From NCBI GenBank assembly GCA_902618175.1, contig CACMZN010000004.1:1-64000 (forward strand): 64,000 nt of DNA, given 5' to 3'. Positions 47,297 through 58,804 of this stretch are shown here, in pieces (position 1 is the first letter of the stretch; every line of letters begins with the position of its first letter). A program made the position numbers and the translations under genes. The notes under the pieces were generated by a model. The model saw only the letters and a program-made list of their open reading frames with translations, made no database searches and was not told the DNA's origin. The stretch comes from an uncultured Verrucomicrobiota bacterium (GTDB taxonomy: Bacteria > Verrucomicrobiota > Verrucomicrobiia > Opitutales > Seribacteraceae).

Positions 47297-48616
47297 CTAG
47301 ACGCAGATTTCGTTTATTACTTTGCCTCCGTCGACAATTTCCATGGGTCTGTCACCAGGAGCCATCAACTCCTTGTCGGCTACGATTCCAAGACGATCGT
47401 ATACGGTCGTCGCCAAATCCTCAACGCTTAGAGGATTGTCCTCCGGAGCAGTTGCAAAAGCATCAGACGAACCATAAACTTGTCCGCGGGTGATGCCGCC
47501 TCCGGCAAGAACCACGCTGAACACTTTCGGGTAATGATCACGACCATTGTCCTTGTTGATCTTGGGAGTGCGACCAAACTCGGAAGACAACATTACCAGA
47601 GTGCTGTCAAGGAGACCTCGATCATCCAAGTCTGAAATCAAGGCAGCGAAGGCTTTGTCAAGGTTGGGCCCATGCTTTTCGAAACCGGCTTGTATGTTCT
47701 GATGCATGTCCCATCCGCCGTAGGTCATGGAAACGAAACGTACTCCGGACTCCACGAGACGACGAGATAAAAGCATTCTTTGTCCAGCCTCATTCCTACC
47801 GTAGCGTTCCTTGAGTTTGTCACTTTCCTTGGAAAGATCGAAGGCATTCCGAGCCTCCTCTGAGCTGATCAAGGAATAAGCGTCGTTGTAAAATTTGTCC
47901 ATTGCCCCAAGAGCATCGGACTTTTCAAGCTTTCTAAAGTGTGAATCGACCACATTTAAAAGACTCTTCCTCTTGGAAAATCGATTGTCGCAAATCTGAT
48001 CGGGTAAAGTCAGATCGCGGACTTTGAAATTTTCGTCAGCAGGATCCGAACCTAGTCCGAAAGGACCGAAGGATGAACTCAAATAACCGCTGCCGGCAAA
48101 TTCATTGGGTACTTTCGGAATGCACACGTAAGGTGGAAGATTCCTTCGGGAACCGAATTCATGGGAAACCACGGAGCCCATACTAGGAAAACTGGTTGCC
48201 GGACTCGGACGGTATCCCGTAAACATATTGTGCGTACCCCGTTCGTGGGCTGCCTCGCCATGAGTCATGGAGCGACAGACGGTGATCTTGTCGGCAATTT
48301 TAGCGGATTCTTTGAAATTTTCAGAAAAACGAACTCCGGGAATCTTAGTTGGAATGCTGTTGAAAGGACCCCGGTATTCAAGGGGTGAGTAGGGTTTGGG
48401 ATCCCAAGATTCCTGATGAGCCATGCCACCGGGCAAATAGATGTGTATGACGCTCTTTGCCTTTCCTTCCCTTGATTCGTAGTACTTTTGAGCTCCGTGA
48501 GCCTTGAATCGGAAAAAGTCTGCCAAGGTTAAGCCTAGACCACCGACCAAGCCGACATGCAAGAATTCACGACGAGAAAAATGAGAGGGAAACTCAAAAC
48601 AAGGAGAATTTTTCAT
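47297..48616 (-). CDS. DUF1501 protein with Tat signal
   Basis: This 439-residue sulfatase-like-fold protein is exported by Tat (SRREFL at residues 14-19, then a hydrophobic stretch). DUF1501 landmarks: VIHIYLPGGMAHQESWDPKP, CRSMTHGEAAHERGTHNMFT, RFVSMTYGGWDMHQNIQAGF and VMLSSEFGRTPKINKDNGRD. It is the first gene of the four-gene minus-strand cluster. Its start lies 163 bases from the divergent RHH gene and faces the palindromes there. Biochemical function is not established for the family. Confidence 0.94.
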   Translation of the reverse strand: MKNSPCFEFPSHFSRREFLHVGLVGGLGLTLADFFRFKAHGAQKYYESREGKAKSVIHIYLPGGMAHQESWDPKPYSPLEYRGPFNSIPTKIPGVRFSENFKESAKIADKITVCRSMTHGEAAHERGTHNMFTGYRPSPATSFPSMGSVVSHEFGSRRNLPPYVCIPKVPNEFAGSGYLSSSFGPFGLGSDPADENFKVRDLTLPDQICDNRFSKRKSLLNVVDSHFRKLEKSDALGAMDKFYNDAYSLISSEEARNAFDLSKESDKLKERYGRNEAGQRMLLSRRLVESGVRFVSMTYGGWDMHQNIQAGFEKHGPNLDKAFAALISDLDDRGLLDSTLVMLSSEFGRTPKINKDNGRDHYPKVFSVVLAGGGITRGQVYGSSDAFATAPEDNPLSVEDLATTVYDRLGIVADKELMAPGDRPMEIVDGGKVINEICV

Positions 48617-48691: not shown

Positions 48692-48751
48692 TTGCAATGC
48701 AATTAAATGTAATTTAATAAAATATTAAAGGTTTATTCACTTGCATTGCAA
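48692..48751. promoter_or_regulatory. Pair of mirrored 11-bp near-palindromes
   Basis: TTGCAATGCAA (48692-48702) and its exact reverse complement TTGCATTGCAA (48741-48751) lie 38 bases apart between the divergent DUF1501 and RHH genes. Both are followed by TTA. This is the size and layout expected for operators of a small ribbon-helix-helix protein. Operator function is an inference. Confidence 0.5.
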
Positions 48752-48779
48752 TTAGATTTGGTTTCCAATTAAAAGTAAG

Positions 48780-49025
48780 ATGGCAAAGGGAAAGACAGTT
48801 ACGATCCGAGTTTCCGAGAAAACATTCGAAGAAGTGAAGGTAGTGTGTACGGAACTGGGTGAGACCTTTAATTTCAATCAGTTCGTCAATCACAGTTTGA
48901 GTGCCGTTTTAGAAGTTATCAGACACAATGGGAAAGAGATTCCCGTTCCAAAATTTGTAATGATGGCTCGCCTTATGAGAGAATACGAAGAAAAGCATTT
49001 CAACGAATCGAAGCAAAAAAGATGA
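48780..49025 (+). CDS. Small ribbon-helix-helix-like protein
   Basis: This 81-residue protein begins with a basic strand (GKTVTIRVSEKTFEEV) and two helices (KVVCTELGETFNFNQFVNHS, LSAVLEVIRHNG), the pattern of Arc/MetJ-type RHH DNA-binding proteins. A charged C-terminal helix follows. Its ATGA overlaps the start of the MscS-like gene, so it leads a three-gene operon. Twin palindromes lie just upstream, suggesting autoregulation. The fold is judged by eye and is not certain. Confidence 0.62.
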   Translation: MAKGKTVTIRVSEKTFEEVKVVCTELGETFNFNQFVNHSLSAVLEVIRHNGKEIPVPKFVMMARLMREYEEKHFNESKQKR

Positions 49026-50572
49026 AGCCCCAACTATCGTCTGATTCTTTCCTACATTCATTGGTGACCTTGAAGCGTCTCATTTTTCCTTCGCTCATTT
49101 TTTTCTTCTTTCTCGCTTTTCTGCTCTCACATGAGGAACTGACTCAAAAATTTTTAGGCAATGTTTCTGAGATCATCATTCTGTGCTTTTATTATGGTTC
49201 TCAAATCGGTTTGTGGTTGTCTGCGGCTTTTCTTGTCCAAAGACTTTTCACAGTTTTTCTTTGGGATGGTCTGATTACGCAAATATCAGGACGTCCGGTA
49301 CCCCGGTTGCCGAAGGATATAACTGGTATGGTAGTCTTTGGAATTGCCGGCATGGGGGTACTTGCGACCGTATTTGATCAATCCGTCACCGGTATTTGGG
49401 CAACATCAGGAATCATGGGAATTGTCGTAGGCATTGCATTGAGAAACGTTATCTTGGATGTCTTCATAGGGTTGTCGATGCATGTGGAACAACCTTTTCG
49501 CATCGGTGACTGGGTGATGATACATCAGAATCGTAGGGAGACTCATATCGTTGGCAAAGTCATTGAAATCAATTGGAGAACAACCAGATTAAAAACCACC
49601 GAAAAAAATATGGTTGTGGTTCCCAACAACAAGATGGGGGAAGCTATTCTAACAAACTACATGGAGCCAAAGCCTCACTTTCGAATGAATTTGAAATTTG
49701 CTCTTGATTATACGGTCCAGCCTGATCGAGCGATACGAGTTCTTTTGTCTGGGGTCACTTCTTTGGTCGACGACAAAAGAATCTTGTCGGATCCGAAGCC
49801 CGAAGTCAGATTGGAACAAGCTCTTCCTCACGGACAAATGTATGACGTTCGTTTTTTTATTCTTCCGGCAAATGTGACTCCAAAGGAATCCAAACACATC
49901 GTCAATAAAGCGGTTATTGAACATCTTGCCTTTGCTGGAATGACGCCTTCCATGGAAAAGGAGCGAATTTTTATGGATCGGACTGAATCTCTTCCGATTT
50001 TGCAAACCAAAGGAGAAGAAAAGTTTCCTGATGTGGTCGGACTTTCTGACCTTGCCTCGGTCCTCACTGAAAAACAAAGAGATAAATTGAAGCGATTTTG
50101 CGTACGTTTTGATTTGGAGGCTGGGGAGACCCTTTATCGCCAAGGAAACCAAGGAAACACAATGTATTGGGTTGCGGAGGGATTACTCAGTTCCTTTTGC
50201 CATCTCTCGGGTTTCGAAGGCCAAGCCAAGGTTGAACATGTGGAAGTGGGCAGTCATTTTGGCGAAGAGTGCGCATTGGGAGAAAATCTCAGAACTTCTA
50301 CGGTTACCGCCATGACCGATACGATAGTATTCTCAATTGATACAAAAAACATCCAAGAAATTGCCGCTCAAAACGGATCTTTTCTATCTATGCTCAACAA
50401 ACAGATGGGACTTAATCTCAATAAGATTGAAGAAAAGAAAAAAGGAATCCGAAGCAAGGGCGTGAAAAGAGCATCAACCAAACGCAAAGTTCGTGTGAGT
50501 GGTGCCATTCAAACTTTCTTTGCGGATCTTTTTCCATCCGGCGAATCATCAGAAACCAATTTATCATCATGA
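49022..50572 (+). CDS. MscS-family channel with C-terminal cyclic-nucleotide-binding domain
   Basis: This 516-residue inner-membrane protein has about three to four N-terminal membrane helices. The MscS pore-beta domain follows (GIMGIVVGIALRNVILDVFI, EQPFRIGDWVMIHQNRRETH, VVVPNNKMGEAILTNYM). A CAP_ED/cNMP-binding fold lies at about residues 345-460 (EAGETLYRQGNQGNTMYWVA, VGSHFGEECALGENLRTSTV). The phosphate cassette here reads FGEECALGENLRTST, close to the consensus FGExALL. It resembles bacterial cyclic-nucleotide-gated MscS (bCNG) channels. It is coupled by 4-base overlaps to both neighbours. Confidence 0.93.
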   Translation: MKPQLSSDSFLHSLVTLKRLIFPSLIFFFFLAFLLSHEELTQKFLGNVSEIIILCFYYGSQIGLWLSAAFLVQRLFTVFLWDGLITQISGRPVPRLPKDITGMVVFGIAGMGVLATVFDQSVTGIWATSGIMGIVVGIALRNVILDVFIGLSMHVEQPFRIGDWVMIHQNRRETHIVGKVIEINWRTTRLKTTEKNMVVVPNNKMGEAILTNYMEPKPHFRMNLKFALDYTVQPDRAIRVLLSGVTSLVDDKRILSDPKPEVRLEQALPHGQMYDVRFFILPANVTPKESKHIVNKAVIEHLAFAGMTPSMEKERIFMDRTESLPILQTKGEEKFPDVVGLSDLASVLTEKQRDKLKRFCVRFDLEAGETLYRQGNQGNTMYWVAEGLLSSFCHLSGFEGQAKVEHVEVGSHFGEECALGENLRTSTVTAMTDTIVFSIDTKNIQEIAAQNGSFLSMLNKQMGLNLNKIEEKKKGIRSKGVKRASTKRKVRVSGAIQTFFADLFPSGESSETNLSS

Positions 50573-52647
50573 AATGTTCCTTGTATTTACTTTTTCTTCT
50601 AGTTTTCTACTTAGCGAAAAGTTCCTCTGCTCAAAGCATGAGGTCCTCTGACTCAATGGACTCAAGAAGATTGGAGCAAATGGCATCGGAGCGAATTCGA
50701 TTGAGCTATGTTGATCCAATCCGCTGCATAAAGTTGCTCGAGCTTTACGGAGTGAAGGTGACGGATGGGAAACAAGCAATAGATCCGGAATCCTTGCCCG
50801 TAGTTGTCCTTCTCCCGGAGACCAGCTTTCATGACACCATTCCAGATCATGAGAAGATTTTCCCTCGTACCGAGACCGATCCGATCAATGAACTTATGCT
50901 CTTCTATGATTCTCTAGTTCCCGAGGAGGCGGGAAGAATTCGTAGAATCATAAGTGAGCAAATTGATCTTCCCGCCCGAAAAATAATGATCGAAGCAATG
51001 GTTCTTGAAATTTCATCCATGGAATTGGAAGAGTTGGGGGTTGAATGGGATTTCAATTCTGGAAAGAAAGGAATTTCAGATGGAAATTTCCTCAATCAAA
51101 AGTTGGACGGATCAAATGATAGTTTGGTTCTGGGAAGGATAGCATACCCTGCTGCAGGAACCTCTCAGCTAGATGCCACCATCACCAACGTATTCAGTGA
51201 ATTCAACATACGTTTGCAGGCATTGGTCGAGGATGGATCAGCTCAAATTCTCTCAAGACCAAGCGTTCTTACCTTAGACAACCGAATGGCTTACATCAAC
51301 GTCTCTGAGAAGATTCCCATTGCCAATACTAAATTTGTGAAGGACTACGTAAGCGCCGTTGACTTTCGCGACGTCATGGCAGGAATCGAATTAGCCGTCC
51401 GTCCACGCATTAGTGGAGATGGTTCTGAAGTATCCCTGCAAATCAACGCTGCCGTTTCCGCTCGCGTTCCTGGAAAAGATCAAAATGTTTTGGGCAAGGA
51501 CGACATCGTCTTGGCAACGGCTCCCACGCTTTCCATACGAGAAGTCAAGACTTATGCAAGAATCGCCAACAACACACCATTCATAGTTGGTGGATTGATT
51601 GCCAGAGATTCCGAACAAACCATCAGTAAGGTCCCTCTTTTGGGAGATTTTCCCTTTCTGGGTTCATTATTCAGATCAAAAAATGAGACTGGTCAAAAAC
51701 GTGAGGTCATAATCGTAATCACTCCCTCCGTTCTTCCGGAAGAAACAGGAGTCCACTCAAGCATGCCTAAAGAGGACGATTTGTTCGATAAATTTGGAAA
51801 TCGTTTGTTTCGTGACGCTTATCGGATAAGAGCCGAAGATACCTTCGACTTGAGATACTTGACGGAAAACAAAGGTTTGAAGAAATTGCAAAAGGTTGCT
51901 GATCGCATTGTGAGCGATCATCCCCAACTCGCGAACGCCTACCCCTATCAGAATTTCTCTGGTGGGTCGATCCCCGGCGAAGATGCATTGGTGAGAAGGC
52001 AGATTTACGAAGTGCTCAAAAGAAATGATGAATTGGATGTGCTTGACCTTGAAAAATTGATTTTCTTTGGCAGCGACCGTTCCTTGGGATCAGGTTTCAA
52101 GGTGAGATTTCTAATGGATCACCTTAGGGAAAACGCTCCTTTTGCACTCACTGAGCAGGGAGATGGTCGGGCCATTGGACTTTGTTTCCGTTCGAAGAGA
52201 AATGACATGGCGGTGGACGACATTTTGGAGGAACCGGTTCCCGAATTGAAGATCGTCTCTTGTCCGGATGAAAAAAGCTGGAGACGCTTTCTCTTCGAAT
52301 CCAATATGCGTGAGGGTGGATCTTCGGTCAAGCAAGTCATTTTCATCCGACACCTGAAGGATCTGGAGCGCTTGAAAAAGGCTGTCCTTATGAAAAAGAT
52401 CATCTCTCTCAATGCATCGGATTACATTCTCAAGTTGAAGAACTTTACTCGAGGTCGACTGTTGAGGATGCCGAATTTCAGGGAAGACGACGTTGAGTTG
52501 ATCGATTCGGACGTGGCCACCTGCTTTTACCATTCCGAGCTTTACTACACATCTCTGCAAGAGGCCTTGCGGATCGACTACGGTGCCTTCAAGAAGGTAC
52601 TTGAGGATTCTCCCTATTCGATTGAATTGATGGGAGGAAACCAATAG
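50569..52647 (+). CDS. Secretin-family protein with novel C-terminal half
   Basis: This 692-residue exported protein has a signal peptide (SLYLLFLLVFYLAKSSSA). The N-terminal region is short (about 115 residues, without clear N0/N1 repeats). The secretin core follows, with RKIMIEAMVLEISSMELEEL, SRPSVLTLDNRMAYINV and the signature KVPLLGDFPFLGSLFRS near residue 353, ending with REVIIVITPSV. The last 290 residues are unlike any domain I recognise. The ATG overlaps the MscS gene by 4 bases. There are no type II, III or IV secretion genes beside it. A multimeric outer-membrane pore is likely. Confidence 0.9.
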   Translation: MKCSLYLLFLLVFYLAKSSSAQSMRSSDSMDSRRLEQMASERIRLSYVDPIRCIKLLELYGVKVTDGKQAIDPESLPVVVLLPETSFHDTIPDHEKIFPRTETDPINELMLFYDSLVPEEAGRIRRIISEQIDLPARKIMIEAMVLEISSMELEELGVEWDFNSGKKGISDGNFLNQKLDGSNDSLVLGRIAYPAAGTSQLDATITNVFSEFNIRLQALVEDGSAQILSRPSVLTLDNRMAYINVSEKIPIANTKFVKDYVSAVDFRDVMAGIELAVRPRISGDGSEVSLQINAAVSARVPGKDQNVLGKDDIVLATAPTLSIREVKTYARIANNTPFIVGGLIARDSEQTISKVPLLGDFPFLGSLFRSKNETGQKREVIIVITPSVLPEETGVHSSMPKEDDLFDKFGNRLFRDAYRIRAEDTFDLRYLTENKGLKKLQKVADRIVSDHPQLANAYPYQNFSGGSIPGEDALVRRQIYEVLKRNDELDVLDLEKLIFFGSDRSLGSGFKVRFLMDHLRENAPFALTEQGDGRAIGLCFRSKRNDMAVDDILEEPVPELKIVSCPDEKSWRRFLFESNMREGGSSVKQVIFIRHLKDLERLKKAVLMKKIISLNASDYILKLKNFTRGRLLRMPNFREDDVELIDSDVATCFYHSELYYTSLQEALRIDYGAFKKVLEDSPYSIELMGGNQ

Positions 52648-57760: not shown

Positions 57761-57838
57761 CCTTGGGAATTGCCTCACAATTGAATTGCGTTTTGATTTA
57801 CACTACCCGTCGACTTGAGTGTGACGGAGGGAATCGGC

Positions 57839-58804
57839 ATGGAGTTCATTGATCTTTTTTGTGGGATTGGTGGGTTTCGACAAGCTCTTGAAAAAAAAGG
57901 TCTCCGTTGTGTGTTTTCTTCGGATTGGGACAAAGATGCCCAAGACACCTACGAGTTAAATTACGGTGAACGTCCATGGGGTGACCTTACCAAAATAATT
58001 GCCTCTGAAATACCACGGCATGACGTTTTATGCGGAGGTTTCCCTTGTCAACCTTTCAGCATCTCAGGGAATCGGGGAGGTTTTGAGGATGTGCGTGGTA
58101 CTTTGCTGCATGAGATTTTACGGATAGCCAGACATCACCATCCTCGGGTTCTTTTTCTTGAAAATGTTAAGAATTATTCCGGACACGACGAGGGGAGGAC
58201 ACTCGCCACCACCGTTCGTCTTCTTAAAAAAGCGGGTTACAAGGTGAGACACGCCATCCTCAATGCTTCCCGTTTTGGGGTGGCCCAAAAGCGGGAACGC
58301 ATCTATTTCGTCTGCCTGCGGGCAGATTTGGGAATTTCAACTTTCAAATTCCCAATGCCAACGGATGAGGATGTTGCCCTTGAAGATTTTCTATTGCCTT
58401 CGAACGATCGAAGGCTCGAAGATTTGGTAATCAGTCGGTCGGACTTGCGGCTGAATCGGGAACTTCCTTCGGAAAGGCAAAACCGTCCTTTGCGAGTAGG
58501 GGAAGTCGGAAATGGAGGACAAGGGGAACGGGTCTACAGTTGCAAAGGGCATGCCATAACACTCTCTGCCTTTGGTGGAGGAATCGGCGCCAAGACAGGA
58601 TTGTACTGGATAGATGGGAAAGTAAGAAGACTTCATCCTGAAGAATGTAGTCAAATCATGGGTTTCTCGAAAGAATTTCAGCTTTCTTCCCGACGCAACG
58701 TCTCGTACAAGCAATTTGGAAATTCAGTGGCAATACCAGTGGTAAGCAAGATTTTTGAGTCCATACAGCGTTCGCTTTGCTTGCAATCCTTGGAGGCTGC
58801 CTAG
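57839..58804 (+). CDS. DNA (cytosine-5) methyltransferase
   Basis: This protein of about 321 residues starts at the ATG at 57839, which has a perfect GGAGG 8 bases upstream. All C5-methyltransferase motifs are present: I (DLFCGIGGFRQAL), IV with the nucleophile Cys70 (GGFPCQPFS), VI (FLENVKN), VIII (QKRERIYFV) and X (YKQFGNSVAIPV). It methylates cytosine in DNA; the target sequence is not predictable. No cognate restriction gene is visible; the next genes, 14 bases downstream, are AddB- and AddA-like. It may be an orphan methylase. Confidence 0.97.
   Translation: MEFIDLFCGIGGFRQALEKKGLRCVFSSDWDKDAQDTYELNYGERPWGDLTKIIASEIPRHDVLCGGFPCQPFSISGNRGGFEDVRGTLLHEILRIARHHHPRVLFLENVKNYSGHDEGRTLATTVRLLKKAGYKVRHAILNASRFGVAQKRERIYFVCLRADLGISTFKFPMPTDEDVALEDFLLPSNDRRLEDLVISRSDLRLNRELPSERQNRPLRVGEVGNGGQGERVYSCKGHAITLSAFGGGIGAKTGLYWIDGKVRRLHPEECSQIMGFSKEFQLSSRRNVSYKQFGNSVAIPVVSKIFESIQRSLCLQSLEAA

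Follow-up and report, generated by a model that had tools for sequence, protein, structure and literature searches.

In the window analysed here (the whole 64,000-nucleotide stretch of DNA from an uncultured Verrucomicrobiota bacterium), three plus-strand ORFs at 48780-52647 encode an RHH-like protein, an MscS-family channel with a cyclic-nucleotide (cNMP)-binding domain and a secretin (81, 516 and 692 aa). The secretin carries a conserved C-terminal part (CTD) and belongs to a family, undescribed until now, that occurs across Planctomycetes-Verrucomicrobia bacteria. We propose that the operon is one form of secretin-coupled transporter, in which the CTD-secretin would serve as outer-membrane pore for the transporter encoded with it, and we give this reading a probability of about 0.55. 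The components are members of known families; the new element is their coupling.

The ORF calls and the sequence agree with the preliminary description in that the three genes form one operon joined by two ATGA overlaps, at 49022-49025 between the RHH-like and MscS genes and at 50569-50572 between the MscS and secretin genes (Table 1). Among 57 relatives searched, orthologs occur within the genus, in two further genera of its family and in one additional family. The order RHH-MscS-secretin, on one strand, is kept in every ortholog locus with enough contig, including that of the second family (L051), the RHH frame having been read by hand in three of the loci; the conservation of gene order on which the earlier proposal depended thus holds. 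The MscS and secretin genes also occur together genome by genome, and the two apparent exceptions, both at contig ends, are fragments: of the secretin in G023 and of RHH-MscS in G032. The neighbours of the operon are sulfatase/DUF1501-like genes. One of these, the divergent gene at 47297-48616, has a Tat-like start, is DUF1501-like by eye and is the operon's neighbour in most orthologs, and some Verrucomicrobiales loci have similar genes ahead of the operon. Further downstream, an ORF at 57815-58804 resembles a C5 cytosine methyltransferase (PCQPFS motif) and is found near the same place in some relatives.

Table 1. Features of the operon and its upstream region (positions in the window)
Feature	Position	Strand	Basis
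Palindrome TTGCAATGCAA, putative operator 1 of the RHH-like regulator	48692..48702	.	Sites upstream in orthologs
Palindrome TTGCATTGCAA, putative operator 2	48741..48751	.	Sites upstream in orthologs
RHH-like DNA-binding protein, 81 aa, putative autoregulator, lineage-specific part	48780..49025	+	ORF call
MscS-family channel with C-terminal cNMP-binding domain, 516 aa	49022..50572	+	Pfam; start in ATGA overlap
MscS beta domain, PF00924 (MS_channel_2nd), residues 142-213	49445..49660	+	Pfam E 9e-16
cNMP-binding domain, PF00027, residues 365-451	50114..50374	+	Pfam E 7e-14
CTD-secretin, 692 aa: signal-peptide-like start, short N-terminal domains, secretin domain, conserved CTD	50569..52647	+	
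Secretin domain PF00263, residues 218-389	51220..51735	+	Pfam E 1.5e-38
CTD, residues 398-692, common to class-2 and ABC-coupled secretins	51760..52644	+	Alignments A1, A3

The third gene encodes a member of the secretin superfamily (PF00263, 132.5 bits against a gathering score of 27.5). Its N-terminus is short, with about 117 residues, signal peptide included, before the N3-like part, and neither Pfam nor NCBIfam has a model that matches its last ~295 residues, so that both the short N-terminus and the unrecognised C-terminal half noted in the preliminary description stand. The same genome encodes a second secretin with 28% identity over residues 102-681 of the first, and the C-terminal half is therefore common to both. 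Alignments of the CTD contain motifs such as FDSFxNxLFRxAYRIRxEDxFDL and PGExxxVRR. The CTD alone gave a predicted model with pLDDT 78.7 and pTM 0.79, its first 28 residues being of low confidence, and a fold search with this model returned nothing at E <= 0.001; the highest VIA Z was 4.1, for a 103-residue match to diguanylate cyclase domains, which is in the chance range, and no fold is claimed. The model of the full-length secretin (pLDDT 58) was too poor for use.

One genome per species, 84,980 species altogether, was scanned with exact peptide patterns, by which distant members elsewhere may be missed, and 80 loci were kept, all in records titled Verrucomicrobia/Opitutia, Kiritimatiellota, Lentisphaeria, Phycisphaerae or other Planctomycetes. 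The CTD is accordingly seen in Verrucomicrobiota, Kiritimatiellota, Lentisphaerota and Planctomycetota. Its distribution is patchy in evenly drawn genomes (8 of 388 from the phylum of the window and 10 of 392 from that of a planctomycete), and no match to the secretin was found in viral contigs.

The genetic coupling is shown by the neighbours of these genes. In nine of the 80 loci the sequence breaks off no more than 90 bases before the secretin gene, and in this single genome scan all 71 testable loci have an inner-membrane transporter adjacent or fused to the CTD-secretin: an MscS-family gene in 41, an ABC exporter in frame with the secretin in 18 and a separate ABC gene in 12. The MscS gene lies downstream of the secretin in L148 and L149, and in L134 the ABC part of the fusion is split over two frames. 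The evenly drawn samples of two phyla, some genomes of which overlap the first set, gave a partner in 11 of 13 testable matches, and two divergent CTD-secretins (L183, L223) have no adjacent known transporter. As a control, none of 20 secretins without the CTD from relatives had the modelled partners adjacent. Several other genes were observed around these loci: a histidine kinase with an HNOBA domain near the L183 secretin, a Sel1/TPR-repeat gene directly 3' of the secretin in three Verrucomicrobiales loci (L100, L104, L108), an AcrB-like RND pump gene (L108:162-3308) 252 bases upstream of the MscS gene on the same strand, and ORFs of the size of this pump gene in L109 and L112.

The partners appear to have changed while the association persisted. 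In a tree of 64 secretins, a quick tree with some long branches, ABC- and MscS-coupled secretins are intermixed and a single clade of MscS-coupled secretins is rejected (p-AU 8e-07). Since the MscS-coupled secretins are not one clade, the partners were exchanged and the coupling stayed; the MscS tree is compatible with both re-recruitment and transfer. The preliminary description had suggested a trans-envelope conduit from the window alone, and this reading is strengthened now that members of this secretin family prove to be coupled to inner-membrane transporters of two further kinds, although the physical conduit itself is something we infer. With three unrelated inner-membrane transporters coupled by operon or fusion and exchanged over time, the best explanation would be that the secretin is the outer-membrane exit (or entry) for what they move. 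Counting against a conduit are the two CTD-secretins with no transporter beside them, a short N-terminal part that may not extend as far as the inner membrane, and differing ring symmetries: MscS has seven subunits, solved secretins usually 12-15, and ABC exporters are dimers.

We therefore picture a CTD-secretin that would act as a dedicated outer-membrane pore, in the role that TolC and an adaptor have in a tripartite pump, with its periplasmic part, CTD included, touching the transporter and coupling the pore to it. In the operon of the window, the MscS-family channel may open on cyclic-nucleotide binding and/or membrane tension, and small solutes would leave via the channel and then via the secretin, if the flow is outward. 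We would class the unit, tentatively and at rather less than even odds, as a new class of trans-envelope transport unit of the PVC bacteria, a CTD-secretin duct for single exchangeable transporters (a cNMP-gated MscS channel, an ABC exporter in one polypeptide with the secretin, a nucleotide transporter), two forms of which would be controlled by cNMP or move it.

The nucleotide form is the operon of the paralogous secretin, which contains the genes of a TLC nucleotide transporter and the CTD-secretin and, as a rule, a cNMP-binding gene. In the family of the window, a TLC-type ATP/ADP transporter (Pfam on examples) is found upstream of the second secretin in all nine testable loci, with a separate cNMP gene between the two in six. 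HEAT repeats are present in two examples of the transporter. Major et al. 2017 (PMC5381601) described NTT-HEAT proteins with an adjacent or fused cNBD, to which the paralog operon is alike in its TLC/NTT transporter, in the HEAT repeats of the two examples and in the adjacent cNMP gene; it differs in its secretin and phosphodiesterase (PDE) partners, which are not mentioned there.

The 57 relatives contain 14 class I PDE genes, of which 13 directly adjoin the paralog secretin and one lies at a contig end. The product is assigned to class I by PF00233 (194.3 bits, over the cut-off) and by the metal-binding His/Asp motifs. It resembles human PDE4, with the catalytic motifs kept and a lipobox in most copies, and the family had no match in 14 well-known control genomes. 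PDE4-like lipoproteins were observed beside the paralog secretin at L054:2466-3707 and in 12 relatives. Class III cyclases are common (46 of the 57 relatives, and five in the genome of the window).

These genes could mean that the handling of cyclic nucleotides is the common purpose, with the secretin as the route by which nucleotides or cAMP, serving as signal or nutrient, cross the outer membrane. The TLC protein would then carry them across the inner membrane, the PDE4-like lipoprotein would break cAMP outside the cytoplasm, and the MscS-cNMP channel would be the ligand-gated counterpart. The regular presence of the TLC gene, the frequent cNMP gene, the position of nearly every PDE gene, the catalytic motifs and the mostly present lipobox of its product and the abundance of cyclases all agree with this, but the ABC-coupled loci have no cNMP domain, the genome of the window has no PDE match and the role of TLC proteins in moving nucleotides is only putative here. 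We consider this explanation unlikely.

The channel of the window has an MscS beta domain and a cNMP-binding domain in one protein (Pfam), the domain content of the bCNG channels. Both Glu415 and Arg424 of the phosphate-binding cassette are present, and both residues are kept in 49 of 58 homologs; judged from these residues, cNMP binding by the channel is plausible. In the same order, MscS-cNMP proteins of ~30% identity occur without an adjacent CTD-secretin (G043, G046), so the channel is probably an older module. A second, short MscS copy of 305 aa without the cNMP domain was seen in G015 (L208:1957-2874). We know of no secretin partner for bCNG channels. With those of the MscS superfamily (Caldwell 2010 and Malcolm 2012, as cited in PMC4560390) the window protein shares the C-terminal cNMP-binding domain; it differs in its secretin partner, and its own gating by cNMP is putative.

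The MscS beta domain is well conserved, as would be expected if the operon were an osmotic safety valve in which tension opens the channel, osmolytes exit fast via the secretin and cNMP binding only tunes the response. Such a valve leaves unexplained why this secretin family also has ABC and TLC partners, and we regard it as rather improbable. In known MscS channels the beta and cNMP domains are cytoplasmic, and secretins are periplasmic/outer-membrane proteins. The CTD would be periplasmic by analogy, and for this reason it is unlikely that the C-terminus of the secretin docks on the MscS beta domain, a possibility raised in the preliminary description.

Single ORFs with ABC_membrane, ABC_tran and Secretin domains were confirmed by Pfam, and the fusions include two records titled complete genome (L121, L140) and a single-contig genome (L178). 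The fused exporter is of type IV, and the ABC half resembles MsbA/ABCB exporters. Every fusion has a hydrophobic, signal-peptide-like stretch between the ATPase and the secretin, and in most an AxA-like or cysteine motif comes next, as judged by eye and by regular expression. The one-ORF ABC exporter-secretins (L116-L122, L124, L125, L129, L150 and others) are possibly cleaved polyproteins. The resemblance to MsbA, and an internal signal peptide that would let the two halves part, are also what one might expect if there were no conduit and the transporter aided secretin biogenesis or membrane homeostasis, for example by lipid flipping by the ABC half, so that the coupling would reflect assembly or regulation. 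We find this just as improbable as a valve, because three unrelated transporter families occupy the same slot and the other secretins of the relatives have no such neighbour.

Secretins are known as the rings of type II, type III, type IV-pilus, Tad and filamentous-phage machines. With GspD, PilQ and SctC the secretin of the window has in common the PF00263 domain and the N3-like part, and differs from them in its short N-terminus, its unique CTD and the lack of adjacent machine genes. It misses every NCBIfam equivalog cut-off: TIGR02517 (GspD) gave 169.6 bits against 351.35, TIGR02515 (PilQ) 132.1 against 284.35 and TIGR02516 (SctC) 128.3 against 238.45. It is also not encoded with other type II genes, its neighbours being the sulfatase/DUF1501-like genes and the MscS gene. 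Although GspD models are the best match of its secretin domain, it is hardly credible that the protein serves as outer-membrane ring in an ordinary type II, type IV-pilus or type III machine with genes elsewhere, given the missed cut-offs, a type II-like locus in relatives that has its own secretin without the CTD (L067, L068) and the absence of adjacent pilin or secretion ATPase genes. We therefore rejected a type II or pilus secretin, and the combination that would have refuted the preliminary description, type II/IV partners of the secretin elsewhere and an MscS gene on its own, was not observed.

By analogy, the closest likeness to our secretin-coupled transporter is with TolC-type tripartite pumps and type I secretion, where an inner-membrane transporter is paired with an outer-membrane duct. 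The difference is that here a secretin takes the place of TolC and no adaptor gene was recognised beside it; the unit has no TolC-family (OEP) channel, and its outer-membrane candidate is the secretin. We find no support for the secretin as a substitute for an absent TolC: all 11 genomes tested carry TolC-family (OEP) genes, located away from the operon, and thus have no evident need of one. The accessible part of a review on TolC-type pumps and type I secretion (PMC8277102) does not contain the word "secretin", and a literature search, thin on subscription journals, found no paper describing this gene set.

Neither Pfam nor NCBIfam gives a match for the 81-aa protein, and the label RHH-like thus relies on its look and on the upstream palindromes. 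TTGCAwTGCAA-like palindromes lie 5' of the RHH gene in most orthologs, typically near -40 and -75 to -100. Exact sites number three in the whole 2.03 Mb genome, and two of them are at the operon. We infer that the protein autoregulates the operon, presumably as a repressor acting through the two palindromes. No regulon is claimed, because the third site (G000:C13:8196) is between other genes and a reversed-pattern control gave one match. The preliminary description had placed the channel and pore under this regulator; we reject it as a core part: the gene is absent from Verrucomicrobiales and more distant loci and present only in two families of the order, and is a local addition.

The novelty lies in the gene partnership; if the conduit is wrong, only a new secretin variant remains. 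The partnership of a secretin with one channel or pump suggests a new route for small molecules across both membranes. If the proposal is true, these bacteria would have another way across two membranes, via a secretin and one inner-membrane transporter, even as one polypeptide with the ABC exporter, and the family would be a natural test bed for the matching of outer-membrane pores to pumps. The pairing of the family with cNMP domains and a PDE4-like lipoprotein would also make extracytoplasmic cyclic nucleotides in bacteria directly testable.
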